From: Ramlibacter pinisoli
Lineage (GTDB): Bacteria > Pseudomonadota > Gammaproteobacteria > Burkholderiales > Burkholderiaceae_C
Reading direction: 5' to 3'
Length of the DNA stretch: 64,000 nt
NCBI RefSeq assembly: GCF_009758015.1
Contig: NZ_WSEL01000009.1
Location: forward strand, 1,158,501-1,222,500
Shown: one piece after another, positions 299 to 63,722 of the stretch
Layout: each line of letters starts with the position of its first letter
How positions within the stretch are numbered: position 1 is the first letter of the stretch
The notes under the pieces: generated by a model
What the model saw: only the letters and a program-made list of their open reading frames with translations
Database searches by the model: none
Told to the model about the DNA's origin: nothing
Program-made: the position numbers and the translations under genes

Positions 299-2875
299 TC
301 AGTCGCCGGCAACGCGCCGGGCCAGGTGGGCGAGTGCCTCTTCCACCTGGTCCACCAGCACCAGGCACAGGTCTCCGGGTTGCAGCCGCGCGAGTGCGGC
401 GTCGATGGCGACGAACTCGCCGCGGATTTCCTCGACATGCGTGGTGCGGCTCGCGCCTTGCAGCCCCTCGCGCAGCAGCGCCATCACCTCGCCGTCGGCG
501 CGCCCGCGCTGGGCCGCGTCCTGGTACAGGAGGACGTCGTCGAAGGCGGCGCCCAGGATCAACGTCTGGTCGCGGATGTCCTGGTCGCGCCGGTCGCCGG
601 CGGCGCTGATGACCACCGAGCGGCGTTTCGCCGGCATCGCATCGACCGCGGCCACCAGCGCGCGCATCGCGTCGGGGTTGTGACCATAGTCGGCGATCAC
701 GGTCGCGCCCTGGTAGTCCATCACGTTGAAGCGAGCGGGCGCGTTGTGCGCGTCGTTGACGAAAGTCGCGAGGCCGTTGCGGATGGCGTCGAACGGCAGG
801 CCCGCGCCCCAGGCGGCGGCCACCGCCGCCATGACGTTCTCGACCTGGAAGCCGATCGTGCCGTTGCGGGTGATCGGGATGGCGGCCAGGGGGATGTGCG
901 CGCGCTGGCTGCCCTCCGCGGCGACCACGGAGCCTCCGTCCAGCGCCCGGTCGATGTAGACCTTGCGCCCGCCCTGGGCGCGATGCGCCACCATGACGGC
1001 GTTGTGGCGGTCGGCGGCGAAGAAGATCACCTTGCCCGGGCAGGCGTCGGCCATCGCCGCGACGATGGGATCGGCCGCGTTCAGCACCGCATAGCCTTCC
1101 TTGGGCGTCACGTTCTGCACGATCACGCGCTTGAGGACGGCCAGGTCCTCCACGGTGGTGATGTAGTTCAGCCCCAGGTGGTCCCCGTCGCCCACATTGG
1201 TGACAACTGCCACCTGGCAGTGGTCGAAGCCCAGGCCTTCGCGCAGGAGGCCGCCGCGCGCGGTCTCGAACACCGCCGCCTCGACGTCGGGATGCATCAG
1301 CACGCTGCGCGCGCTCTTCGGCCCGCTGCAGTCGCCGGAGTCGATCTGCCGGCCGTCGACGTAGACGCCATCGGTGTTGGTCATGCCCACCGTCAGTCCG
1401 CTGCTGGCGAACAGGTGCGCGATCAGGCGCGCCGTGGTCGTCTTGCCGTTGGTACCGGTGACCGCGACCACCGGGATGCGGCCGTCGTGGCCGGGTTCGA
1501 ACAGGTGGTGGATGATGGCCTCGCCGACGTGGCGCGGCCGGCCATAGGACGGCGACAGGTGCATGCGCAGCCCCGGCGCGGCGTTGACCTCGACGATGCC
1601 GCCGCCCTGCTCCTCCAGGGGTCTGAGCACGCTCTCGCACACCATGTCGACACCGCACACGTGCAGGCCCACCATCTGCGCCGCGGCGATCGCGCGCTCG
1701 GCGACCTCGGGGTGCACGTCGTCGGTCACGTCGGTGGCGGTGCCGCCGGTGGACAGGTTCGCGTTGTGGCGCATCCGCACGCGCTGGCCGCGCGCCGGCA
1801 CGCTGCCGATCGTCAGGCCCTGCTCGGCGAGCAGTGCGATGGCGATGTCGTCGATGCGGATCTTGGTCAGCGAGGTGGCGTGGCCATCGCCGCGGCGCGG
1901 GTCGGCGTTGACCTTGGCGACCAGTTGCTCCACCGTGTGCTCGCCGTCTCCCAGCACCAGCGGCGGCTCGCGCCGCGCGGCAGCGACCAGTCGGTCGCCC
2001 ACCACCAGCAGGCGGTAGTCGCTGCCGGGCAGGAACTTCTCGACCATCACCTCGCCGATCTCGGCCGCAGCCTTGTAGGCCAGCGCCATCGCGTCGCGGC
2101 TGGTGAGGTTGACCGTGATGCCCTTGCCCTGGTTGCCGTCCCGGGGCTTGACCACCACGGGCAGGCCGACCTCGAGCGCGGCGGCCCAGGCGTCGACCTC
2201 GTCGGCCACCGGCCGGCCGATGGGCACCGGCACGCCGGCGGCGTGCAACAGCTGCTTGGTCAGCTCCTTGTCCTGCGCGATCGACTCGGACACCGCGCTG
2301 GTCTGGTCGACCTCGGCGGCCCAGATGCGGCGCTGGTGCTTGCCCCAGCCGAACTGCACCAGGCTGCCCTCGGTCAGGCGCCGCCACGGGATGCCGCGCG
2401 CCGCCCCCGCCTGCACGATGGAGCCCGTGCTGGGGCCCAGGCGCACGTCCTCGTCGGTGTCGCGCAGACGGGCGATCGCCGCGTCGACGTCGAACCCGGC
2501 CTCGGGGTCCAGCGCGGCCGTGATCAGCTGCTGCGCGAGCTCGAAGGCCAGGCGGCCGACGGCCTCCTCGCAGTATTCGACGACGACCTGGTAGACGTGG
2601 GGTTCGACCGTGGCCTGCGTGCGGCTGAAGCTGACCGGGCAGCCGGCTTCTTCCTGCAGCGCGAGTGCCGCGGCCTCGAGCACATGGGCGAGCGACACCG
2701 CGCCGCCGGTGCGCAAGGCGCCGATGGCCGGAAACAGCTTGCGCAGCCGGGCCTCGAAGCCGGGGCGCCCGGTCATCGCGGTTTCGTCGGCCGCGCACGA
2801 CACGACGGCCTCGATGGCCGTGTGGCGGCTCCACAGGTTGGGCCCGCGCAGCGCGCGAAGGCGGGAAATGTCCAT
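299..2875 (-). CDS. cphA: Cyanophycin synthetase CphA
   Basis: Cytoplasmic ATP-dependent enzyme that builds cyanophycin (poly-Asp backbone with Arg side chains), a nitrogen store. At 858 aa it is close to the usual family length. The order is an N-terminal domain beginning with LRGPNLW, an ATP-grasp domain (about 190-460, with VVKPRDGNQGKG and IVEVNAAPG) and a Mur-ligase-like domain with intact P-loop GTNGKTTT near residue 474 followed by a complete C-terminal ligase lobe (ATVIADYGHNPDA). Both active sites therefore look functional. It follows cphA' by 13 bp and is surely co-transcribed with it. Export and degradation partners lie across a divergent promoter region. Confident call. Confidence 0.95.
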   Translation of the reverse strand: MDISRLRALRGPNLWSRHTAIEAVVSCAADETAMTGRPGFEARLRKLFPAIGALRTGGAVSLAHVLEAAALALQEEAGCPVSFSRTQATVEPHVYQVVVEYCEEAVGRLAFELAQQLITAALDPEAGFDVDAAIARLRDTDEDVRLGPSTGSIVQAGAARGIPWRRLTEGSLVQFGWGKHQRRIWAAEVDQTSAVSESIAQDKELTKQLLHAAGVPVPIGRPVADEVDAWAAALEVGLPVVVKPRDGNQGKGITVNLTSRDAMALAYKAAAEIGEVMVEKFLPGSDYRLLVVGDRLVAAARREPPLVLGDGEHTVEQLVAKVNADPRRGDGHATSLTKIRIDDIAIALLAEQGLTIGSVPARGQRVRMRHNANLSTGGTATDVTDDVHPEVAERAIAAAQMVGLHVCGVDMVCESVLRPLEEQGGGIVEVNAAPGLRMHLSPSYGRPRHVGEAIIHHLFEPGHDGRIPVVAVTGTNGKTTTARLIAHLFASSGLTVGMTNTDGVYVDGRQIDSGDCSGPKSARSVLMHPDVEAAVFETARGGLLREGLGFDHCQVAVVTNVGDGDHLGLNYITTVEDLAVLKRVIVQNVTPKEGYAVLNAADPIVAAMADACPGKVIFFAADRHNAVMVAHRAQGGRKVYIDRALDGGSVVAAEGSQRAHIPLAAIPITRNGTIGFQVENVMAAVAAAWGAGLPFDAIRNGLATFVNDAHNAPARFNVMDYQGATVIADYGHNPDAMRALVAAVDAMPAKRRSVVISAAGDRRDQDIRDQTLILGAAFDDVLLYQDAAQRGRADGEVMALLREGLQGASRTTHVEEIRGEFVAIDAALARLQPGDLCLVLVDQVEEALAHLARRVAGD

Positions 2876-2888
2876 GGCTAGCTCAAAC

Positions 2889-5084
2889 TCAGGCGGGCTG
2901 CGCGGAAGGGATGCCGTGGGCGTCGAAGGTCTCGATGCCGGCGATGATCAGGTCGGGCGGGATCTCCAGCGCCCAGGCGGCGGCGATCACGGCGAGCAGG
3001 GACTCGTCGGACAGGCCACCACGCGCCAGGCGCGCCGCGGGCGGCAGCCGCGTCTCGGCGCTGCCGGTGGCCAGCACGGGGCTGCCGTCCTGCAGGGTGA
3101 CGGCGCGACCGCCGCGCGCGCCGCTGCGGCGGTGCGCCAGCAGCGCCGGCACCTGCGGATCGGTGGCGTACAGGATCACCTCGCCGTCGCACAAGGTCCC
3201 CAGCGCGGCGACGCGTTCGTCGGCGGCGTTGAGCACCGCGACCCCGTCGTCCAGCACCACGTCGACCTGGGTACGCAGCACCTTGGCCATCTGCTCGATC
3301 GATTGCACGTCGAACTCGGCCAGCGTGCCGGCGCCGTCGAAATCCGTGACCACGCCGACCGTGCAGCGGTCGTAGGCCAGGCCGTCGCGCAGCATGGCGC
3401 GGGCATCGTTCTCGAACACCGCGGCCTGCACGTTGCGATTGACCAGCAGGCGGTGCGCCACGTCCCAGCGGCGCGCGTCGCCGGCCGCCAGCCGGCGGCG
3501 GTCGAGGTACAGGCCGTCGGCGCAGGCCAGGCCCACGCGCTGGCCGCGCAGCTGGGCGAGCCAGCCGACCAGCCGCGCGATGCGGGTGGTGTCGCGCGTG
3601 CCGGCGATGCCGACGATGGGGATGCGGCCGGCGTGCGCATGGTCGCCATTGCCGGGGAACAGCGCGTCGACGATGGCCCGGCCCACCGGGCGCGGCTTGC
3701 CGACGGCGGGTTTCAGGTGCGCCAGCAGGCCGGGGCCGGCGTTGACCTCGACGATCGCACCCCCCTGTTCGTGCAGCGGGCGGCCGATGTCCTGGGCCAC
3801 GAGGTCGACGCCGGCGATGTCCAGGCCGACGATGCGCGCGGCCAGTGCGACCACGTGCTCGACCTCGGGGTGGACCTGGTCGGTGCAGTCGATCGCGACG
3901 TTGCCATTGCGCTGGATCAGCACCTTGCGCCCCGCCTCGGGCACGGCCGCAGGCGAGAGGCCTTGCCGCGCCAGGTCGCCCAGGACGGACTCGTCTTCCT
4001 CGAGCACCAGGCGGTTCAGCGGGTGGTCCTCGCTGACGCCGCGGCGCGGGTCGCTGTTGATCTGCGCGTCGACCAGCTGGGCCACGGTGCAGCGGCCGTC
4101 GCCCGTGACCCAGGCGGTTTCGCCGCGGGCGGCCGCCACCACCTTGTCGCCGAGCACCAGCAGGCGGTGCTCGTCGCCGGAGACGTAGCGCTCGACCAGC
4201 ACCTCGCTGCCATGGCGCGCGGCGACCTCGAAGGCGGCCTCGACGTCCGCCCGGGTGCGCAGGTCCAGCATGACGCCGCGGCCGTGGTTGCCGTCGCTGG
4301 GCTTCACCACCACCGGCAGGCCGATGTCCTGCGCCGCCTCCCAGGCCTCGGCTGGCGATCCGGCGGCGCGGCCTTCCGGCACCGGCACGCCGCAGGCGGC
4401 GATCAGGCGCTTGGTCAGGTCCTTGTCGCGCGCGATGCCCTGGGCGATGGCGCTGGTGTGGTCGGTCTGTGCGGTCCAGATGCGGCGCTGGCGCGCGCCG
4501 TGCCCCAGCTGCACCAGGTTGCCGTCGTTCAGGCGGATGTGCGGAATGTGCCGGTCGGTCGCCGCGGCGACGATGGCCGCGGTGCTGGGGCCGAGGTAGG
4601 AGTCGTCGACCTGCTCGCGCACCTGCGCGACCGCGGCCGCGACATCGAAGGATTCGTCGTTGATCGCCGCCATCAGCAGGCGATGGCCCTGCGCCAGCGC
4701 GCTGCGCGCGACCTGCTCGTCGCGGGCACGGAACACCATGCGGTAGACGCCGGGTCGCGAGGTGCTGCGCGTCTGACCGAAGCCGGTGGGCATGCCGGCC
4801 AGGTTCAGCAGCTCGATGACCACGTGCTCCAGCACGTGGCCGGCCCAGGTGCCCTCCTGCAGGCGCTGCAGGAAGCCGCCGCGCTCCCCGACGCCGCAGT
4901 GGTGCTCGATCAGCGCCGGCAGCAGCGCGGTGAGGCGCTCATTGAAGCCGGGCAGCAGGTTCGAGGGCCAGTCTTCCAGTTCGCCGAGGTCCAGCCAGAC
5001 CTCGAGCACCGGGCGGTAGGTCCACACGTTGGGGCCGCGCAGGTAGTTGATGCGCAGCAGTTGGATGTCGTTCTTCTTGCTCAT
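2889..5084 (-). CDS. cphA': Second cyanophycin synthetase, CphA' type, degenerate Mur domain
   Basis: A 731-aa paralogue of the downstream CphA and first gene of the operon. The N-terminal domain (LRGPNVW) and ATP-grasp domain (VVKPSDGNHGRG, IVEVNAGPG) are well kept. The Mur-ligase P-loop at about 494-500 reads GTRDTT, so the glycine-lysine that binds ATP phosphate is gone, and the protein ends right where the third Mur lobe should begin. Paired cphA/cphA' genes are known in Burkholderiales, and cyanobacterial CphA2 with a reduced Mur half polymerises beta-Asp-Arg dipeptides. A similar role, or a structural subunit for CphA, is inference. Confidence 0.9.
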   Translation of the reverse strand: MSKKNDIQLLRINYLRGPNVWTYRPVLEVWLDLGELEDWPSNLLPGFNERLTALLPALIEHHCGVGERGGFLQRLQEGTWAGHVLEHVVIELLNLAGMPTGFGQTRSTSRPGVYRMVFRARDEQVARSALAQGHRLLMAAINDESFDVAAAVAQVREQVDDSYLGPSTAAIVAAATDRHIPHIRLNDGNLVQLGHGARQRRIWTAQTDHTSAIAQGIARDKDLTKRLIAACGVPVPEGRAAGSPAEAWEAAQDIGLPVVVKPSDGNHGRGVMLDLRTRADVEAAFEVAARHGSEVLVERYVSGDEHRLLVLGDKVVAAARGETAWVTGDGRCTVAQLVDAQINSDPRRGVSEDHPLNRLVLEEDESVLGDLARQGLSPAAVPEAGRKVLIQRNGNVAIDCTDQVHPEVEHVVALAARIVGLDIAGVDLVAQDIGRPLHEQGGAIVEVNAGPGLLAHLKPAVGKPRPVGRAIVDALFPGNGDHAHAGRIPIVGIAGTRDTTRIARLVGWLAQLRGQRVGLACADGLYLDRRRLAAGDARRWDVAHRLLVNRNVQAAVFENDARAMLRDGLAYDRCTVGVVTDFDGAGTLAEFDVQSIEQMAKVLRTQVDVVLDDGVAVLNAADERVAALGTLCDGEVILYATDPQVPALLAHRRSGARGGRAVTLQDGSPVLATGSAETRLPPAARLARGGLSDESLLAVIAAAWALEIPPDLIIAGIETFDAHGIPSAQPA

Positions 5085-56044: not shown

Positions 56045-56491
56045 ATGAGATCACTGCTGCTTCCGCTGGCTGCCTGCGCCGCGCTGGGGGGCTGCTATTC
56101 GTATGCGCCGTATGGCTACGGGTATCCCTACGGCTCCCCCACGGTCTACTACCAGCAGCCGGGAACCACCAGCTCGACGGCCGGGACTGCGGGCACGACG
56201 GCCCAGGTGCAGAACGGGACGCAGGCACCGAACGGCTCGGTCCAGGTGCCGGCAGACGGGACGGCGGCCCCGAACGCACAGGTCTACACGCCTGCGCCGA
56301 CGACCTACGCCTATCCCTATCCGTACGCCTACCCCTATGCGTACCCCTACTACGGCTATCCCTACTACGCCTACCCGTACTACGGGTACTCGCCGTTCTA
56401 CCTGTCGGGGAGCTTTTTCTTCGGCGGCGGCCACGGTCATGGCGGACACGGACATGGCGGCCATGGCGGCCACGGGCACGGGCGACGCTAG
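56045..56491 (+). CDS. Tyr/Pro- and Gly/His-rich lipoprotein
   Basis: 148 aa. Lipobox LGGC at residues 14-17. The mature protein starts Tyr-rich (SYAPYGYGYPYGSP), passes through a Thr/Gly/Ala linker and a long Tyr-Pro repeat (TYAYPYPYAYPYAYPYYGYP and more), and ends in a Gly/His repeat (HGHGGHGHGGHGG) that could bind Cu, Ni or Zn. AGGAGG precedes ATG. Surface-exposed function unknown. It lies 280 bp before the secreted protein/peroxidase pair and may belong to that system. Confidence 0.8.
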   Translation: MRSLLLPLAACAALGGCYSYAPYGYGYPYGSPTVYYQQPGTTSSTAGTAGTTAQVQNGTQAPNGSVQVPADGTAAPNAQVYTPAPTTYAYPYPYAYPYAYPYYGYPYYAYPYYGYSPFYLSGSFFFGGGHGHGGHGHGGHGGHGHGRR

Positions 56492-56771: not shown

Positions 56772-59072
56772 ATGCCCCTCTTGCGACCGTCCACGGCCCA
56801 CCGTTCCGCGCTGCGCTGGCCGGCAGCCGGGCTGCTGCTGCTCGCCCTGCTGATCGCCGTCGCCCGGCCCGCGCTGGCACAGGGCACGCCATTCATGGCC
56901 CCCGTGATCCCCGCGGTGCCCGGCGTTCCACCGGGCTTCGACATCACCGGGTTCATCCAGGAAGCCACGCTGGATGCGAACGGCACGATCTGCCGGCCGA
57001 CCCATCCCCGCCTGGCCGGCGGCACCGTCACGCTGAACGGCCAGAAGGTGATCATCCCCTGCAACACTGTCCTGCAGATGCCGGCGTTCACGTTGACGTG
57101 GGCCGACCTGTTCTCGGGCGGCCCCACGGACATCACGCCGGCCGGCCAGACCGGACTGGCGCTGGCGGACGCGATCGGCCCGGTCAGCGGGGCGACGGTG
57201 ATGGCGACGCGGCCCGGATTCCTCACCGCGCCGGGTCCCGACGGAACCGTCCGTGCCAGCGCCCCCCTGCCCTCGTACGAGATCCACGTCGTCGGCAACG
57301 TGGTCAACGGCCAGTACCTCGCCGGCCTGGTGTTCATCTCGCAGCAGTCGACCAATGCCGGCCAGGGCACCATCAGCTGCATCGACTACGCGACCGGCGA
57401 GGTGCAGGTCGGCGGCACGCCCGTCGATCCGACGGTGGCCCCGTACGCCTGCCCCAGCCCGCCACCGCCGGGCGTCACGCGCGTGCGGCTCAATGACGCC
57501 GTCGGCCGCTATGGCAAGAGCCACGCCGCCAGGTGCTACGGCCGCGCCGACTGCGTCGAGGAGCCCGGCTTCGATCCGCGCTTCACGCCGGACACGGACA
57601 ACCCCACCGTCCATGCCTCCACCGGCTACCCGATGTGCATCCCGCGCGTGAACCCGTTCATCGCCGGGGCCGTCGATCCCGAATGCCCGCAGTCGAACCG
57701 GCCGCTCGCCCCGTACTGCAGGAGCTTTCCTGCCGAACTGGGCCTCACGCCGTTCCCGACGCCCAACATGGGCTACTGCATGACCTACGTCATGGATGCG
57801 CCCCGCACCTCGCCGCCGCCCGGCGTCACCGGTTCGTGCCCCGGGCCGGACCCGCTCTGCCCCACCGACCCGACCCGGCAGGTGCCCTTCGAGATCGGCG
57901 ACAACGTCGTCTTCAACGGCACGCTGAAGACCGACAGCGCCGGCAGCTACGTCTCGGCGCACACGATGACGGCCAACCTGGGCATCTACACGCAGCCCAA
58001 CCTGCCGCCGGCCTACACCTTCGTCGAGGAGGTCCTCGCGGGAACCGATGCGCGCCCCGTGGCAGGCATCAACCAGGAAGCGACCGGCCGCGTCAAGTTC
58101 GTCGGCTTCACGACCGACATCACCAATCTCGTCGACCTGTTCGCGCTGGACCAGGACCCGGTCAGCGGCGTGGTGACCGAACGGCTGCTCGGCACGCACA
58201 GCCCCGTGTCCACCCCGCTGCTGGGCCGCTTCCGCACGCCGGCCAACAACAACGGCGCGTTCCTGCCGCCGACCCGCAACTACCGGGCCGTCAGCCGCAC
58301 GATGTGCGCGAACAGCTCGGGGCCCGACAGCCCCTGCACGCTCCAGCAGCGCTCGACCGAGACGTTCGCGAACGGCCTCAACGCCGGCCAGTACCTGCTG
58401 CCCAACTTCGAGTTCATCTTCCCGGAGAACCTGCTGTTCGGCGAGGCGATGGTGCCGAACAACTTCCAGGACCTGCCCTTCCTGTTCTGCGGCTCCGGGC
58501 CGGTGGACGGGCCGGGCAGCCTCTCCCCCGTGGTGGGCCAGCTCGATCCTGCGCCCTGGGCGCCGCCGATGGACGACCCCATCTTCCACGGCTCCCTGTG
58601 TCCCACCGCCCGCGGCGTCGCTGCGCGCGAGTTCCCGCCGGTGGCCGGTGCGCCGGATGTCCTGACCATCGTCGCGGCCAGCTGGGACAACCGGGCCGGC
58701 AAGGGCAAGGTGAACCTGGTCGTGACCTCCAGCAAGAGCCCCGCGCCGGCCGGCATGTTCATGACGGCCAGCCTGGTGAACGCCGGCCTGCAGCCCGGCG
58801 TGCCCGGCAGCGTCGACAACCCGATCAACGTCGGCATGGTGCTCGCGGGCAACTCGCCCGCGGCGCCGGCCGTCTGCCCGACGACGGAACCGTGCTGGCA
58901 GCTGCTGGCTCCGGGGTTCATCGTCGACCCGCAGGGCGCGGGCGGGAACGGCATCCCGACGCTGGTGCCGCCCACCCAGATCACCGTGCGCTCGAGCTAC
59001 GGCGGAAAGGCCACGACGACAGCCATCACCACCCGTGCCTGCGTGCCCACGCGCCGGCTGACCTGCCTGTGA
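56772..59072 (+). CDS. Large Cys-rich secreted protein of unknown family
   Basis: 766 aa. AGGAG six bases before ATG. A long signal peptide ends PALAQ near residue 37. The mature protein has more than 20 cysteines, no CxxCH heme site and no membrane segment. Repeating beta-type units can be seen: PSYEIHVVGNVVNGQYLAGL, FEIGDNVVFNGTLKTDSAGS and a third-unit GRVKFVGFTTDITNLVD, suggesting OB-like or Ig-like modules. Two DPRFTPDTDNPTVHASTGYP-like segments resemble a conserved core. No function assigned. It is 12 bp from the diheme peroxidase gene, so the two are co-expressed and probably interact outside the cytoplasm. Confidence 0.85.
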   Translation: MPLLRPSTAHRSALRWPAAGLLLLALLIAVARPALAQGTPFMAPVIPAVPGVPPGFDITGFIQEATLDANGTICRPTHPRLAGGTVTLNGQKVIIPCNTVLQMPAFTLTWADLFSGGPTDITPAGQTGLALADAIGPVSGATVMATRPGFLTAPGPDGTVRASAPLPSYEIHVVGNVVNGQYLAGLVFISQQSTNAGQGTISCIDYATGEVQVGGTPVDPTVAPYACPSPPPPGVTRVRLNDAVGRYGKSHAARCYGRADCVEEPGFDPRFTPDTDNPTVHASTGYPMCIPRVNPFIAGAVDPECPQSNRPLAPYCRSFPAELGLTPFPTPNMGYCMTYVMDAPRTSPPPGVTGSCPGPDPLCPTDPTRQVPFEIGDNVVFNGTLKTDSAGSYVSAHTMTANLGIYTQPNLPPAYTFVEEVLAGTDARPVAGINQEATGRVKFVGFTTDITNLVDLFALDQDPVSGVVTERLLGTHSPVSTPLLGRFRTPANNNGAFLPPTRNYRAVSRTMCANSSGPDSPCTLQQRSTETFANGLNAGQYLLPNFEFIFPENLLFGEAMVPNNFQDLPFLFCGSGPVDGPGSLSPVVGQLDPAPWAPPMDDPIFHGSLCPTARGVAAREFPPVAGAPDVLTIVAASWDNRAGKGKVNLVVTSSKSPAPAGMFMTASLVNAGLQPGVPGSVDNPINVGMVLAGNSPAAPAVCPTTEPCWQLLAPGFIVDPQGAGGNGIPTLVPPTQITVRSSYGGKATTTAITTRACVPTRRLTCL

Positions 59073-59084
59073 CGGTGGACGATC

Positions 59085-61547
59085 ATGACCACGATCCAGC
59101 CCGCCACTCCCCGCCCCGCCAAGCGCTCCCCTGCGGGCGCCCGGGGTGCCGCGCCCTGGCAGCGCGCCCTCCTGCTCGTGCTGGCCACGACGATGGTGGT
59201 CTCGCCGGTGTCCGCCCGCGGACCCGGGCGTCCAGGCATTGCCGACCTGGTCGAAGAACCCGACGTGCTTCCGGCACGAATCACCCGCAAGACGGCCAAC
59301 CTGGCCGCCAGCCTCGATCCCACGCAACGCCTGCCGGGCAACCCCAGCGTGCCGGGCTCCAGCGTGGACGCCTCCGGCGAGCAGCCCCTCACCGTCTCCA
59401 TCGACGCCATCCGCGGCTCGCCCGAGACCATGACGATGGGGCAGACCGTCATCTCCGATTCCGGCGAGCTGATGGTCCCGCTGCAGGGCGTCGCGGCAAC
59501 TGCCACGGTGGGCGGCCGGCCCGCCATTCCCGCCGTCAACGCGCACATCGGCACGGTCGACCTGGTGCCGCCGCTCGTGTCCCTGAAGGCCACGCCCATT
59601 CCGCCCGTCACCGGGATCGAGCAGTTCGTGCGCGACAGGTCCGCCGCGATCGCGCTGGGCAAGGCCCTGTTCTGGGACGCCAAGGTCGGCAGTGATGGCC
59701 AGGCCTGCGCAAGCTGCCACTTCTCGGCCGGCGCGGACAACCGCCTGAAGAACCAGCTCAACCCCGGGCAGCGGGGCAGCGACAACCTCTTCAACCGCAC
59801 GTTCACCGGCGAGGGCGGGCCCAACTACGTGCTCAAGCCCGAGGACTTCCCGTTCCTGCGGCTGCTCAATCCCCTCGACCGCAACTCCGCCATCACGTTC
59901 CAGACCAACGACGTCGTCTCCTCGCAGGGCACCTTCGCCGGCGACTTCATGGGCCTGGCCTCCGGCGGCACCGAGAAGTGCGGCAACCGCCCGGTCGACG
60001 AATTCAGCGTGCACGGCATCCTCACGCGCCGGGTGGCCCCGCGCAACGCCCCGACCGTGATCAACGCGGTCTTCAACTACCGCAACTTCTGGGACGGCCG
60101 CGCCAACAACACCTTCAACGGCAACAACCCGTTCGGCGAGCGCGACCCCGATGCCCGGGTGCTGCAGCGGCAGGGCCAGGGCCAGGCGGCCTGGGTCCGG
60201 ATCCACCTGCCGAACGCCAGCCTGGCCTCGCAGGCGGTCGGGCCGGCGCTGAGCGACTTCGAGATGTCGTGCGCCAACAAGACCTTCCCCTACCTCGGCC
60301 GCAAGATGATCCCGCTGCGGGCCCTGTCCGGGCAGAAGGTCCACGCGGAAGACTCGGTGCTCGCGCCCCTGCGCGACTCCACGGGCGTGGGGCTGACGCA
60401 GACCTACGAGCAGATGATCAAGGCGGCCTTCCTGCCCGAGTGGTGGAGCGCGCCGGGCACCTACGCCGGTTTCAGCCAGATGGAGTCGAACTTCTCCATG
60501 CTGTGGGGCCTGGCGATCATGCTCTACGAGACGACGCTGGTCTCCGACGAGGCACCGATCGACCGCTTCGTCGGCTGGTCGGGCAGCCCGCCGGATCCGA
60601 ATGCGCTGTCGGTGCAGGAACGGCGCGGACTGGCCATCTTCCGCGGCGGCAAGGCCACCTGCGTGTCGTGCCACCGCGGCGCCGAGTTCACTTCGGCGGG
60701 CTCGGGGCTGCAGCAGACCCGCGGCGAAACCAACCTGGTGGAGCAGATGTTCGTGGGCCGCGGGACGCTGGGCCTGTACGACTCGGGCTTCTACAACATC
60801 GGCGTGCGGCCGACGGCCGAGGACGTCGGGGTCGGCGGCACCGACCCGTTCGGCAACTCCCTGTCGTTCTCGCGCCAGTACCTCGCCCGGCTGGGCGGCC
60901 AGCCGGCGCCGGACCGCTTCCTGGTGGACCCCTGCCTGTTCTCGGTCAAGAGCCATGCGTTCAGCTGCTGGCTGCCGCCTTCGCCGGCGCTCTCGCGGGT
61001 CGGTGTCGACGGCGCCTTCAAGGTGCCCAGCCTGCGCAACATCGCCCTCACCCAGCCGTACTTCCACAACGGCAGCCGCTTCACCCTGGAACAGGTGGTC
61101 GAGTTCTACAACCGGGGTGGCGACCGCCGCGGGCCGGACGGCAACGACACCACCGGCTTCGGCGGCGCCACGGCACCGAACGGCGGCGGCTCGAACGTGC
61201 ATCCCGCGATCCGCCCGCTGGGCCTCACGCCGGCGGAGAAGAACGACCTGGTGGCCTTCCTGCGCAATGCGCTGACCGACCGCCGCGTGGCCTGCGAGCG
61301 GGCCCCGTTCGACCACCCGGCGCTGCGCATTCCCAACGGCCATTCCGGAACCACGACCAAGCTGACCGCGGTCAGGAACGACATCAAGGCGGTCGACGAG
61401 TTCATCGACCTGCCGGAAGTCGGTGCCAAGGGTGTCGCGCCCCGCCCCTGCATGAAGGACGACCTGGGAACGCCCTTCGTCGAGGCGAAGCAGGCGGACG
61501 TCAAGGGGGACAAGAAGGACGACAAGGAGCCGAAGAAGGAGAAGTAG
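59085..61547 (+). CDS. Large diheme cytochrome c peroxidase/MauG-family protein
   Basis: 820 aa, more than twice a classical CCP (about 330) or MauG. A hydrophobic export segment (RALLLVLATTMVVSPVSA) follows a 26-residue basic lead. Heme 1 binds at CASCH (208-212) and heme 2 at CVSCH (526-530). Family marks are NYRNFWDGRANN and VPSLRNIALTQPYFHNGSRF. The N-terminal 175 residues and the region between the hemes are extra. The tail is Lys/Asp/Glu-rich (KGDKKDDKEPKKEK). Likely periplasmic or surface. Peroxide reduction, or MauG-like oxidation of the co-encoded secreted protein, are the main options. Confidence 0.9.
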   Translation: MTTIQPATPRPAKRSPAGARGAAPWQRALLLVLATTMVVSPVSARGPGRPGIADLVEEPDVLPARITRKTANLAASLDPTQRLPGNPSVPGSSVDASGEQPLTVSIDAIRGSPETMTMGQTVISDSGELMVPLQGVAATATVGGRPAIPAVNAHIGTVDLVPPLVSLKATPIPPVTGIEQFVRDRSAAIALGKALFWDAKVGSDGQACASCHFSAGADNRLKNQLNPGQRGSDNLFNRTFTGEGGPNYVLKPEDFPFLRLLNPLDRNSAITFQTNDVVSSQGTFAGDFMGLASGGTEKCGNRPVDEFSVHGILTRRVAPRNAPTVINAVFNYRNFWDGRANNTFNGNNPFGERDPDARVLQRQGQGQAAWVRIHLPNASLASQAVGPALSDFEMSCANKTFPYLGRKMIPLRALSGQKVHAEDSVLAPLRDSTGVGLTQTYEQMIKAAFLPEWWSAPGTYAGFSQMESNFSMLWGLAIMLYETTLVSDEAPIDRFVGWSGSPPDPNALSVQERRGLAIFRGGKATCVSCHRGAEFTSAGSGLQQTRGETNLVEQMFVGRGTLGLYDSGFYNIGVRPTAEDVGVGGTDPFGNSLSFSRQYLARLGGQPAPDRFLVDPCLFSVKSHAFSCWLPPSPALSRVGVDGAFKVPSLRNIALTQPYFHNGSRFTLEQVVEFYNRGGDRRGPDGNDTTGFGGATAPNGGGSNVHPAIRPLGLTPAEKNDLVAFLRNALTDRRVACERAPFDHPALRIPNGHSGTTTKLTAVRNDIKAVDEFIDLPEVGAKGVAPRPCMKDDLGTPFVEAKQADVKGDKKDDKEPKKEK

Positions 61548-61576
61548 GGGAAGCGCCCCTCCAGCGGGGCGCCCCC

Positions 61577-62221
61577 TCAGCGCGAGGGCTTGCCGTGCCG
61601 GCTCGCCAGCAGGGCCGCCTCGACCCGGCTGCGCACCTGCAGCTTCTGCAGGATGTTGGTCACGTAGTGCTTGATGGTCTGCTCGGACAGGAAGATCTTC
61701 TCGCCGATCTCGCGGTTGGTGTAGCCGTCGCCGATCAGCGCCAGGATGTCGCGCTCGCGCGGGGTCAGCTCCTGCAGCGGGTCGGGCGCCTTGCCCTGGG
61801 TCAGCGAGACGAGCATCTCGCCGGCCAGCGACTGCGAGACGTAGACCTCGCCCGCGGCGGCCGCGCGCAGCACGCGGGCCAGCTCCTGCCCCGACACGCC
61901 CTTGAGCACGTAGGCCCGGGCGCCCGCCTTGAAGGCGGCGAGCAGACGGTCCTTGTCGTCGGACATGGTCAGCATGACGATGGTGGTGGCGGGGCAGGCG
62001 GTGCTGACCTTCTCGGCCGTGACGATGCCGTCCCAGCCCTCCATGCTGATGTCGAGCAGCATGAGGCGCGGCATCAGGGTGCGCGCCAGCTGGAGGGCCT
62101 GCTCGCCCGAATCGGTCTCGCCGACCACCTCCAGGTCGGCTTCGCCGGCCAGGGAGGTGACCACCCCGTGCCGGAACAGGGGGTGGTCGTCGACCACCAC
62201 GACGCTGATGCGATCAACCAT
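61577..62221 (-). CDS. NarL/FixJ-type response regulator
   Basis: 214 aa. Receiver domain with DD at 11-12, phospho-acceptor D57 (LMLLDISM) and K at the end of strand 5 (YVLKG). A LuxR-type HTH follows (LTPRERDILALIGDGYTNRE, IFLSEQTIKHYVTNILQKL). Its ATG overlaps the kinase stop by 8 bp. Convergent with the peroxidase operon; a G/C hairpin (61553-61572) lies between. It is the obvious candidate to control that operon and its own. Confidence 0.95.
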   Translation of the reverse strand: MVDRISVVVVDDHPLFRHGVVTSLAGEADLEVVGETDSGEQALQLARTLMPRLMLLDISMEGWDGIVTAEKVSTACPATTIVMLTMSDDKDRLLAAFKAGARAYVLKGVSGQELARVLRAAAAGEVYVSQSLAGEMLVSLTQGKAPDPLQELTPRERDILALIGDGYTNREIGEKIFLSEQTIKHYVTNILQKLQVRSRVEAALLASRHGKPSR

Positions 62222-63722
62222 TGTCTTCCTCCTGCGCGCCCAGCGGCAGCACGGCCCGCACCAGGGCGCCCCGGCCCGGCGCCGATTCGACGGCCAGGGT
62301 GCCGCCCGCGATCTCCACCCGCTCGCGCATGCCGACCAGCCCGAGCCGGCCCTTGCGCGCGTAGTCGGCCGCAAGCCCCGGGCCCTCGTCCCTGACCTCG
62401 ACGGTCAAGCTGTCCCGGTCGGCATGCACCTTCACCCGGCAGCCGCTGCCCTTGGCATGGCGGTAGGCATTGGCCAGCGACTCCTGCAGCACGCGACAGA
62501 CGGTGATCTTGGTGCGGGCCGGGACCACCAGCCCGTGCACGTCGCACTCGACCAGCACGCTCGAGTTTGTCTTGACCTCGTAGTCGCGCACGGCCCGCGC
62601 CACCAGGTCGGCCAGCGTGAGGTTGCGCACATCCGGCAGCTGCAGGTCGGCCGAGATCGCACGCAGGTCGGCCAGGGCAGCATGCACGGCCGCGCGCACG
62701 GGCGCCAGCTGGCCCGTCACGCGGCAGCTCCTGCCATCGGCTCCGGTGCAGGCCGGGTCCTCGGTGGTCAGCTGCATCAGGGCGAACCCGAGGTCCTGGC
62801 CCGGCCCGTCGTGCAAATCGGCCGACAAGCGCTGCAGGAAGTTCTCGTTGAGGGCCGTGGCCCGCACCGCCGCGCGCCGGGCGCGATGGTGGAGGTCGGC
62901 GTTCTGCGCGTTCAGCACCGTGAGCTGCGCCAGCTTGTCACCCAGCTCGCGCTGCTGCCGCTCGATCGTCTGGCTGCCGCGCCGCACCACCACGAACAGC
63001 AGCAGGTACATGGCGGCCATGGCCCCCGCCATCTGCAACCAGCTCTGGCGCTGGGCCACGGCGACCTCGCGGTCGACCTCGTCGGCCTCCTCGTAGAACT
63101 CAGCCGCCGCGATGATCTTGCCCACCTTGTCGGCATGGATCGGCGTGTACGTCTCGATGATGCGGGGACGCGGCTGCCCGTGCGCCTGCTGCTCCTCGTC
63201 CTCGCGCACGCTCAGCTCCGACGAGATTCCGCCGGCCAGCGCCGCCGCCAGGCCCTCGTCCACCGGGTAGGTCTTCCCGACCTCCTCCGGCGTCGTGCTG
63301 AACAGCACCCGGCCATCGGGACGCCAGATCTTCAGGCTGACCACCTTCTGGCCCAGTGGAGTGCTCTCCAGCAGGCGGGCAAGCTCGGCCCGGTCGGTCT
63401 CGGTGAGGTCGTCGGAGCGCAGCAGCGTCTGCGAGTGGGGGGCGATGAAGCTGTCCACGTACAGCGCCGTCACGGCACCCATGCGGTGGACCACGCTGGA
63501 CTGGACCCGCAGGCCGATCCAGTGGCCGATCAGCAGCGTGCCGCCCAGCAGGATGGGGAAGCTCAACAGCAGGAACTGCTGCGACAGCGACAGGCGGAAG
63601 AACCGGACCTGCATCGCGCGAAGCACCCGCCTGGCCCCCGCCCGGGCAGAGCGCGCAGGCTGCTCGTCGCGCGCAGTCGACCACCATCCACCGAACGGCC
63701 GCAGCGCCTTGATCGAACGCAT
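62214..63722 (-). CDS. Membrane sensor histidine kinase (HisKA_3)
   Basis: 502 aa from ATG 63722. TM1 about 49-71, an extracytoplasmic sensor of about 155 residues (IAPHSQTLLRSDDLTETDRA, then a PAS/Cache-like part LKIWRPDGRVLFSTT), TM2 about 229-247, a coiled coil, and the DHp domain with H304 in LSADLHDGPGQDLG. The ATPase part shows ESLANAYRHAKG and RDEGPGLAAD and GRLGLVGMRERV. No cysteine or heme motif in the sensor. Partner of the overlapping response regulator. Ligand unknown; redox or metal stress is plausible by context. Confidence 0.93.
   Translation of the reverse strand: MRSIKALRPFGGWWSTARDEQPARSARAGARRVLRAMQVRFFRLSLSQQFLLLSFPILLGGTLLIGHWIGLRVQSSVVHRMGAVTALYVDSFIAPHSQTLLRSDDLTETDRAELARLLESTPLGQKVVSLKIWRPDGRVLFSTTPEEVGKTYPVDEGLAAALAGGISSELSVREDEEQQAHGQPRPRIIETYTPIHADKVGKIIAAAEFYEEADEVDREVAVAQRQSWLQMAGAMAAMYLLLFVVVRRGSQTIERQQRELGDKLAQLTVLNAQNADLHHRARRAAVRATALNENFLQRLSADLHDGPGQDLGFALMQLTTEDPACTGADGRSCRVTGQLAPVRAAVHAALADLRAISADLQLPDVRNLTLADLVARAVRDYEVKTNSSVLVECDVHGLVVPARTKITVCRVLQESLANAYRHAKGSGCRVKVHADRDSLTVEVRDEGPGLAADYARKGRLGLVGMRERVEIAGGTLAVESAPGRGALVRAVLPLGAQEEDNG

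Follow-up and report, generated by a model that had tools for sequence, protein, structure and literature searches.

In the present study, we analyzed a 64,000-nucleotide stretch of Ramlibacter pinisoli DNA (contig NZ_WSEL01000009.1, positions 1,158,501 to 1,222,500), hereafter referred to as the window, with a focus on two adjacent genes that encode an exported Cys-rich protein of 766 aa (the partner) and an 820-aa diheme protein of the cytochrome c peroxidase (CCP)/MauG superfamily. The partnership between these two proteins is strongly supported, and the clearest evidence for it is provided by relatives in which enzyme and partner form a single chain. We favor the interpretation, to which we assign a probability of approximately 0.45, that the enzyme oxidizes the partner through the Trp residue W596 as a maturation step, W596 being the likely contact residue on the partner. 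We infer this oxidation from the analogy with MauG/preMADH and from the conversion of Trp to kynurenine that has been put forward for SACCP and CorB in the available portions of two reports (PMC3912023, PMC3621798). The features of the pair are as follows.

56772..59072, plus strand: exported Cys-rich partner, 766 aa (core at approximately residues 40-612, C-terminal domain at approximately 626-760)
57099..57101, plus strand: codon of W110, the second conserved Trp, Tyr or Phe in some relatives (Trp in 133/145 partner cores)
57960..57962, plus strand: codon of H397, the most strongly conserved His in the partner (143/145)
58557..58559, plus strand: codon of W596 (in QLDPAPW), the Trp that ends most fusions (142/145)
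58647..59051, plus strand: C-terminal domain of the partner by domain assignment, common to the tails of 12 other CCPs
59085..61547, plus strand: long MauG-type diheme CCP, 820 aa (PF03150, 73.1 bits; best NCBIfam model MbnH TIGR04039, 106.9 bits, below its cut-off)
59706..59720, plus strand: first heme c motif of the CCP open reading frame (ORF), CASCH, residues 208-212
60090..60092, plus strand: W336 in FWDGRA, inter-heme Trp position (202/203 CCP domains; motif aligned with solved chains)
60261..60263, plus strand: E393, which by alignment falls on the Glu of the bacterial CCP motif GPxxxxxEM (202/203)
60660..60674, plus strand: second heme c motif of the CCP ORF, CVSCH, residues 526-530
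61107..61109, plus strand: Y675, aligned with MauG chain position 294, the axial Tyr (203/203)

The CCP gene starts 12 bp past the stop codon of the partner gene, a spacing that was pointed out in an earlier description made from the letters of the window (the sequence-only reading) and is borne out by the ORF coordinates. The third-codon-position GC content is 0.93-0.94 in both ORFs, and the source genome holds a single copy of each gene; a second CCP match is short and weak (E 2.9e-4).

Regarding the distribution of the pair, protein searches identified at least 526 relatives of the partner and at least 7264 of the CCP at E<=0.001 among 8000 candidates scored per search, 120 of each being listed. 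When species genomes were scanned with the partner alignment, 58 loci, many of which are metagenome bins, were obtained from records of Burkholderiales, Ramlibacter, Polaromonas, Leptothrix, Methylococcales, Pseudomonas, Hyphomicrobiaceae, Methylotenera, Gallionella, and others. A locus titled as a metagenome bin of Bordetella parapertussis shows the same gene order as other Burkholderiales bins, and its label may be wrong. Fifty-seven partner cores, including that of the window and three from the sampled genomes of the family, the rest being from the 58 loci, were aligned, and the removal of duplicates (L021/L024 and L064/L065) left 54 distinct partner genes outside the window; loci with too short a piece of the partner, such as L015, L039, L042, L051-L054, L056, L058, L059, and L061, are not among these 54. 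A long CCP gene was found within 1.5 kb of 36 of the 54. Thirteen further genomes carry a Trp-bearing or truncated partner with the CCP absent from the stretch that was fetched, and 11 of them have a CCP match elsewhere (best matches of 235-1235 bits, all E<=1e-60), in some cases on the contig of the partner itself. The background rate of CCPs at E<=1e-60 was 5/250 among sampled genomes of the family to which the window belongs (347-1885 bits). The partner itself is rare and was detected in 3/300 genomes of the order and 3/250 of the family, the source genome being counted in both.

Fusions were identified in addition to adjacent genes. A 1452-aa ORF from a Hyphomicrobiaceae record (L047) contains two heme motifs, with the CCP at 85-807 and the partner core at 893-1446. 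Of the 323 proteins fetched, 25 contain both domains; the CCP precedes the partner in 24 of them, and the partner comes first in P0282, which is from an Acidobacteriia record. The search behind these proteins used L047 as the query and favored fusions, and 25/323 is, thus, not a frequency. The fusions take in the whole 500-residue partner core and not merely a tail, while another 12 of the 323 are CCPs that end in the C-terminal domain of the partner. The view of the sequence-only reading that the enzyme and the secreted protein act as a unit, which rare co-occurrence as neighbors would have contradicted, is upheld by the 36/54 adjacency and by these fusions. Distances between partners correlated with those between CCPs (r = 0.92 over 36 pairs), a value uncontrolled for the species tree that we do not count as evidence.

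The CCP has a signal-like N terminus, as judged by eye, and belongs to the CCP_MauG superfamily (PF03150, cut-off 25.6 bits). As had been anticipated, it is longer than the family norm, with 820 aa versus 308-477 aa in 29 matched solved chains. An alternative assignment as a RoxA-type rubber oxygenase was rejected (PF21419, 19.5 bits versus a cut-off of 26.7). Among 203 CCP domains, the His residues of the two heme motifs are conserved in 202 and 203, W336 in 202, E393 in 202, and Y675 in all 203. We take the E393 position to be that of the catalytic Glu of bacterial CCPs and the W336 position to be that of the inter-heme Trp of diheme enzymes, the latter also being given in the part of PMC6405878 that was available. 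Six further Cys residues are conserved in 193-202 of the 203 domains, which fits an oxidizing, extracytoplasmic location. Y675 aligns with position 294 of the MauG chain and with a Met in the classical peroxidase 1iqc. The same source describes Tyr-His ligation in MauG and BthA and, within the text available, states that changing this Tyr abolishes the near-infrared (bis-Fe(IV)) signal (PMC6405878). Since Tyr, and not the Met of classical bacterial CCPs, occupies the position of the sixth ligand of the second heme in this alignment, the 820-aa protein is by sequence a MauG-type diheme enzyme rather than a classical peroxidase.

The Tyr at this position is also a point against the idea that the CCP scavenges H2O2 near the cell surface, with the partner serving, unmodified, as an electron donor or scaffold. 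The conserved Glu and inter-heme Trp positions are compatible with scavenging, and two CCPs of the kind found in the window (P0172 and P0176) have thioredoxin/redoxin domains fused to them that could serve for electron supply or disulfide folding. However, the aligned axial residue of 1iqc is Met, and scavenging requires neither a dedicated partner of such size nor a fusion; we consider this explanation improbable.

The partner carries a Sec-type signal, as judged by eye, and contains five Trp residues. It was described earlier as a secreted 766-aa protein with over 20 Cys; its length and export stand, but the number of Cys is exactly 20. The CXXCH heme motif is absent from its 766 residues. 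No Pfam or NCBIfam family matched it at E<=1, and the partner profile gave nothing meaningful against solved structures, the sole match having E = 0.5, such that membership in a characterized family unrelated to redox chemistry, which would have spoken against the earlier proposal, was not found in these collections. PKD domains are present in 9 of 50 aligned partners and are presumed to be the source of matches to NF038112 and NF038111 on 12 and 9 of the 50, respectively, which were set aside.

Many residues are conserved throughout the partner core. Across 145 partner cores, the same residue as in the window is present in 142 at W596, 143 at H397, 144 at Y415, and 133 at W110; H397 is the only near-invariant one among the core His residues of the window partner. 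In partners adjacent to a CCP, including that of the window, W596 is Trp in 37/37 and W110 in 36/37, with Tyr in the exception, L004. The three cores lacking W596 are the truncated P0110, the fusion P0315, which has Tyr, and the fusion P0282, which has a gap and a Trp two residues off. W596 sits within a PxPW motif, and in 23 of the 25 fusions the chain terminates exactly at this residue (PxPW-COOH). Ten short stand-alone partners from the genome loci (Pseudomonas, gamma proteobacterium, and Hyphomicrobiaceae records) also end in PxPW, as did none of 166 CCP-only proteins. In partners of the window type, the motif is internal and followed by 170 residues. The distant homologues at L063 and L064 (122-219 bits) retain H397 and Y415 but have lost both conserved Trp residues, W596 and W110; they come from two genomes of one genus, each estimated to be 100% complete and each without a CCP match at E<=1e-30. 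This loss of Trp in genomes without the enzyme is suggestive of a link between W596 and the enzyme.

On the interpretation that we favor, the MauG-type enzyme would use H2O2, or O2 and electrons, to reach a high-valent diheme state, which would draw electrons from the adjacent exported protein as its dedicated partner. Oxidation would thereby turn the Trp into a redox or metal-binding group, for which MauG/preMADH provides a precedent and MopE/CorA a proposed one, and the matured partner would then act outside the cytoplasm together with secreted copper oxidases. A bolder version, which we regard as doubtful, is that the pair constitutes a self-contained oxidative maturation device outside the cell, the target of which would be the C-terminal Trp of the chain itself (PxPW-COOH) or the matching Trp of the partner; its product, a new protein-derived cofactor or a surface radical site, would serve, together with secreted copper oxidases, to oxidize extracellular metals or organic compounds.

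Several observations weigh against W596 maturation by a dedicated enzyme. Four of the five CCP genomes in the background sample, with CCPs of approximately 50% identity, had no partner match, while the genomes G546 and G549, the completeness of which is not stated, have a Trp-bearing partner and no CCP that was found. At seven Pseudomonas loci with both genes, these are divergent and approximately 1 kb apart, and do not form an operon. W596 is not universal even in fusions, being absent at the aligned position from P0315 and P0282; four short database partners extend more than 20 residues beyond PxPW; and W110 is Tyr or Phe in 9/57 partners under 800 aa. The L063 and L064 partners are distant and belong to one genus, and divergence alone may explain their loss of Trp. 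A MopE-like copper site of two His and a Trp is not supported because H251 is Gln in 23/25 fusions and is also replaced in Pseudomonas and Hyphomicrobiaceae partners. In the source genome, moreover, the multicopper oxidase genes lie away from the pair. The four CCPs without this partner (G310, G356, G537, and G539; loci L081-L084) are from genomes of the same family as the source genome and may have another partner.

Regarding the genes that surround the pair, counts were obtained as BLAST clusters over the 58 loci. Multicopper oxidases were found at 15, SCO1/SenC proteins at 16, response regulators of mixed types at 15, and a secretin with pseudopilins at 8, and in the examples scanned, Pfam confirmed the multicopper oxidase and SCO1 assignments as well as the secretin, which carries a cohesin domain. 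The source genome encodes five multicopper oxidases, four of which adjoin an SCO1-like gene by inspection and two of which adjoin very large RTX animal-heme peroxidases (PF03098 and PF00353; L076:9705-14001 and L077:9542-14001); the L077 peroxidase is also near an SCO1-like gene, and this genome is rich in secreted oxidases. Distant paralogues of the partner (L006:2023-4905 and L030:6350-9454; 90-99 bits) were also found near multicopper oxidase genes, and their PxPW reads PFPF by eye. Copper or metal chemistry is a suggestion that we infer from the neighbors alone.

These neighbors also bear on the main rival explanation, in which the CCP-partner unit is an extracellular oxidase and W596 is a permanent electron relay, forming a surface radical to oxidize external substrates, for example Mn(II), phenolics, or humic compounds, with the partner binding the substrate. 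The C-terminal position of W596 in 23/25 fusions, where it is probably exposed, the Tyr of P0315, which could likewise carry a radical, the multicopper oxidases at 15/58 loci, the two RTX peroxidases close to multicopper oxidases in the source genome, and relatives in Leptothrix discophora and Gallionella records are all consistent with a relay. On the other hand, bilirubin oxidase and CotA are the nearest solved chains to the neighboring multicopper oxidase that was scanned, and we know of no Mn oxidation by many of the carriers, such as those of the Pseudomonas and Methylobacter records. The available text of PMC8218464 links two classes of enzymes, heme peroxidases and multicopper oxidases, to Mn oxidation, which is in line with a relay. 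MofC, the cytochrome encoded in the Leptothrix mof operon, is unlike the CCP, its description being that of a Cyt c combined with a periplasmic binding domain (PMC5566968, in the portion available). Considering both sides, we regard a relay as rather unlikely.

Delivery of the matured partner in the favored interpretation is probably performed by a linked type II secretion system (T2SS). A set comprising a secretin, ATPase, GspF, and pseudopilins is present within approximately 20 kb of the CCP in the source genome; the best secretin match starts approximately 10 kb beyond the CCP and is accompanied by pseudopilins, GspF, and a GspE match, and the sequence that separates the pair from the secretion genes is partly masked. 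An architecture with TPR repeats and, at the C terminus, a cohesin domain recurs in T2SS secretins near the pair (L009:5645-7990 and L074:13024-15417). The secretion cluster of the source genome also includes a convergent gene for an 871-aa Ig/cadherin-repeat protein (L074:16829-19444, minus strand). A relative with 34% identity to this protein lies just upstream of the partner at L012:6868-9213 (plus strand), and a weak one is present in Leptothrix (L017); this secreted family, in which the repeats are C-terminal, is possibly another exported component.

The secretion genes beside 8/58 loci, the partner C-terminal domain on 12 CCPs, and the PKD domains may also be taken to indicate that the partner is an export or surface-anchoring module, that its PxPW end is a sorting or folding signal, and that the CCP is linked to it by shared delivery and not by chemistry. 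The internal PxPW of window-type partners, with 170 residues after it, the fusion of the whole 500-residue core and not of a tail alone in 25 proteins, and the many residues conserved through the core argue against such a module, and we see only a slim chance that it is correct.

The genes downstream of the CCP were described earlier as a NarL-type sensor-regulator pair convergent with it, with which the Pfam domains and the minus-strand ORFs agree.

61577..62221, minus strand: NarL/LuxR-type response regulator, convergent with the CCP (Response_reg and GerE by Pfam; start codon inferred)
62214..63614, minus strand: HisKA_3 sensor kinase (HisKA_3 and HATPase_c by Pfam; start inferred, ORF open to 63746)

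The two genes overlap by 8 bp, provided that the inferred start of the kinase is correct. The N-terminal region of this kinase recurs in kinases at 5/58 partner loci (L012, L022, L023, L040, and L055; E<=0.01). Apart from one weak match, the source genome holds one more clear copy of the sensor region, located near GspF at a distance of approximately 20 kb; the kinase part of the clear copy is of the HisKA type, such that the sensor region is common, but the kinase class differs. Homologues of the window regulator and kinase were absent by BLAST from L005, L006, and L014, which are close relatives covered for several kb beyond the CCP. Because of this absence and of the mixed regulators beside other copies, it is fair to regard the two-component system as linked to the pair, but not as dedicated to it, as had been claimed. 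A putative Tyr/His-rich lipoprotein (56045-56491, GGHGH repeats), which the sequence-only reading offered as a third component, was rejected, having no homologue at E<=1e-8 in the loci compared. Elsewhere in the window, two adjacent large ORFs at 299-5084 (minus strand) presumably represent a cyanophycin synthetase pair, as judged from their N termini.

Few diheme enzyme/partner pairs (MauG, MbnH, and SACCP/CorB) are described in the literature that we searched, as far as its texts were available. Pairs of such a kind are, thus, already known; within the open-license literature searched, to which most subscription journals do not belong, and in the text portions available, we found no description of the present pair, its fusions, or the C-terminal Trp. 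Comparisons alone yielded one Trp, fusions as a natural single-chain form of the pair, and enzyme-free genomes that may offer Trp-less controls, which together make the choice of a partner Trp by diheme enzymes directly testable. A secreted system of environmental bacteria that is linked to copper oxidases may also turn out to contain a new protein-derived cofactor.

Among known systems, MbnH/MbnP is close to the present pair in several respects. MbnH is the best NCBIfam match of the window CCP, and the solved "di-heme enzyme" 6e1c, which we take to be MbnH, ranks first among the matches of its C-terminal part, with a Tyr at the corresponding position. However, the 106.9 bits against TIGR04039 are far below the cut-off of 362.85, the solved chain, at 388 aa, has less than half the length of the window CCP, and some relatives of the latter are fusions; no match to the MbnP model TIGR04052 was obtained with the window partner (E<=1) or with 50 partners (E<=0.1). 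In the accessible part of PMC3621798, MbnH/MbnP is likewise a MauG-like diheme enzyme in a conserved pair with a neighboring partner. The BthA type of Burkholderia is represented by the chain 6nx0, presumably BthA itself, which matches the window CCP, but has 477 aa. BthA also belongs to CCP_MauG, shows Tyr-His ligation, and is not accompanied by a mau operon, but has Ser in place of the inter-heme Trp, according to the excerpt available of PMC6405878, whereas W336 is conserved in 202/203 of our domains. MauG/preMADH shares the axial Tyr position and the inter-heme Trp and provides the model for partner Trp oxidation (PMC6405878, same excerpt); the window CCP is, however, outside the MauG family model (TIGR03791, 77.7 bits versus 443.85), and its partner is unrelated to any model found and is fused to the enzyme in some relatives.

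The MofABC/OmpB clusters resemble the loci described herein in having an exported multicopper oxidase, accompanied in some by an SCO1-SenC chaperone and by a cytochrome of the c type (PMC5566968, in the sections available); identity of the CCP with mofC was set aside on the published description of MofC, which is not that of a CCP/MauG protein. In the SACCP/MopE and CorB/CorA systems, the gene for a diheme CCP of the cell surface or periplasm is co-transcribed with that for a copper-binding partner, in which Trp is converted to kynurenine, and the copper site of the MopE type is formed by two His and this kynurenine, as far as PMC3912023 was available. These are systems of methanotrophs, and relatives of the window pair likewise occur in Methylococcales. 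The earlier comparison with MopE holds solely as an analogy: no solved MopE or CorA chain was matched by the partner profile at E<=1, and a conserved His-His-Trp triad was not apparent in the partner alignment. Taken together, we read the present pair as a putative new MauG-type enzyme/partner family that is analogous to MbnH/MbnP and SACCP/MopE and has an unrelated partner.

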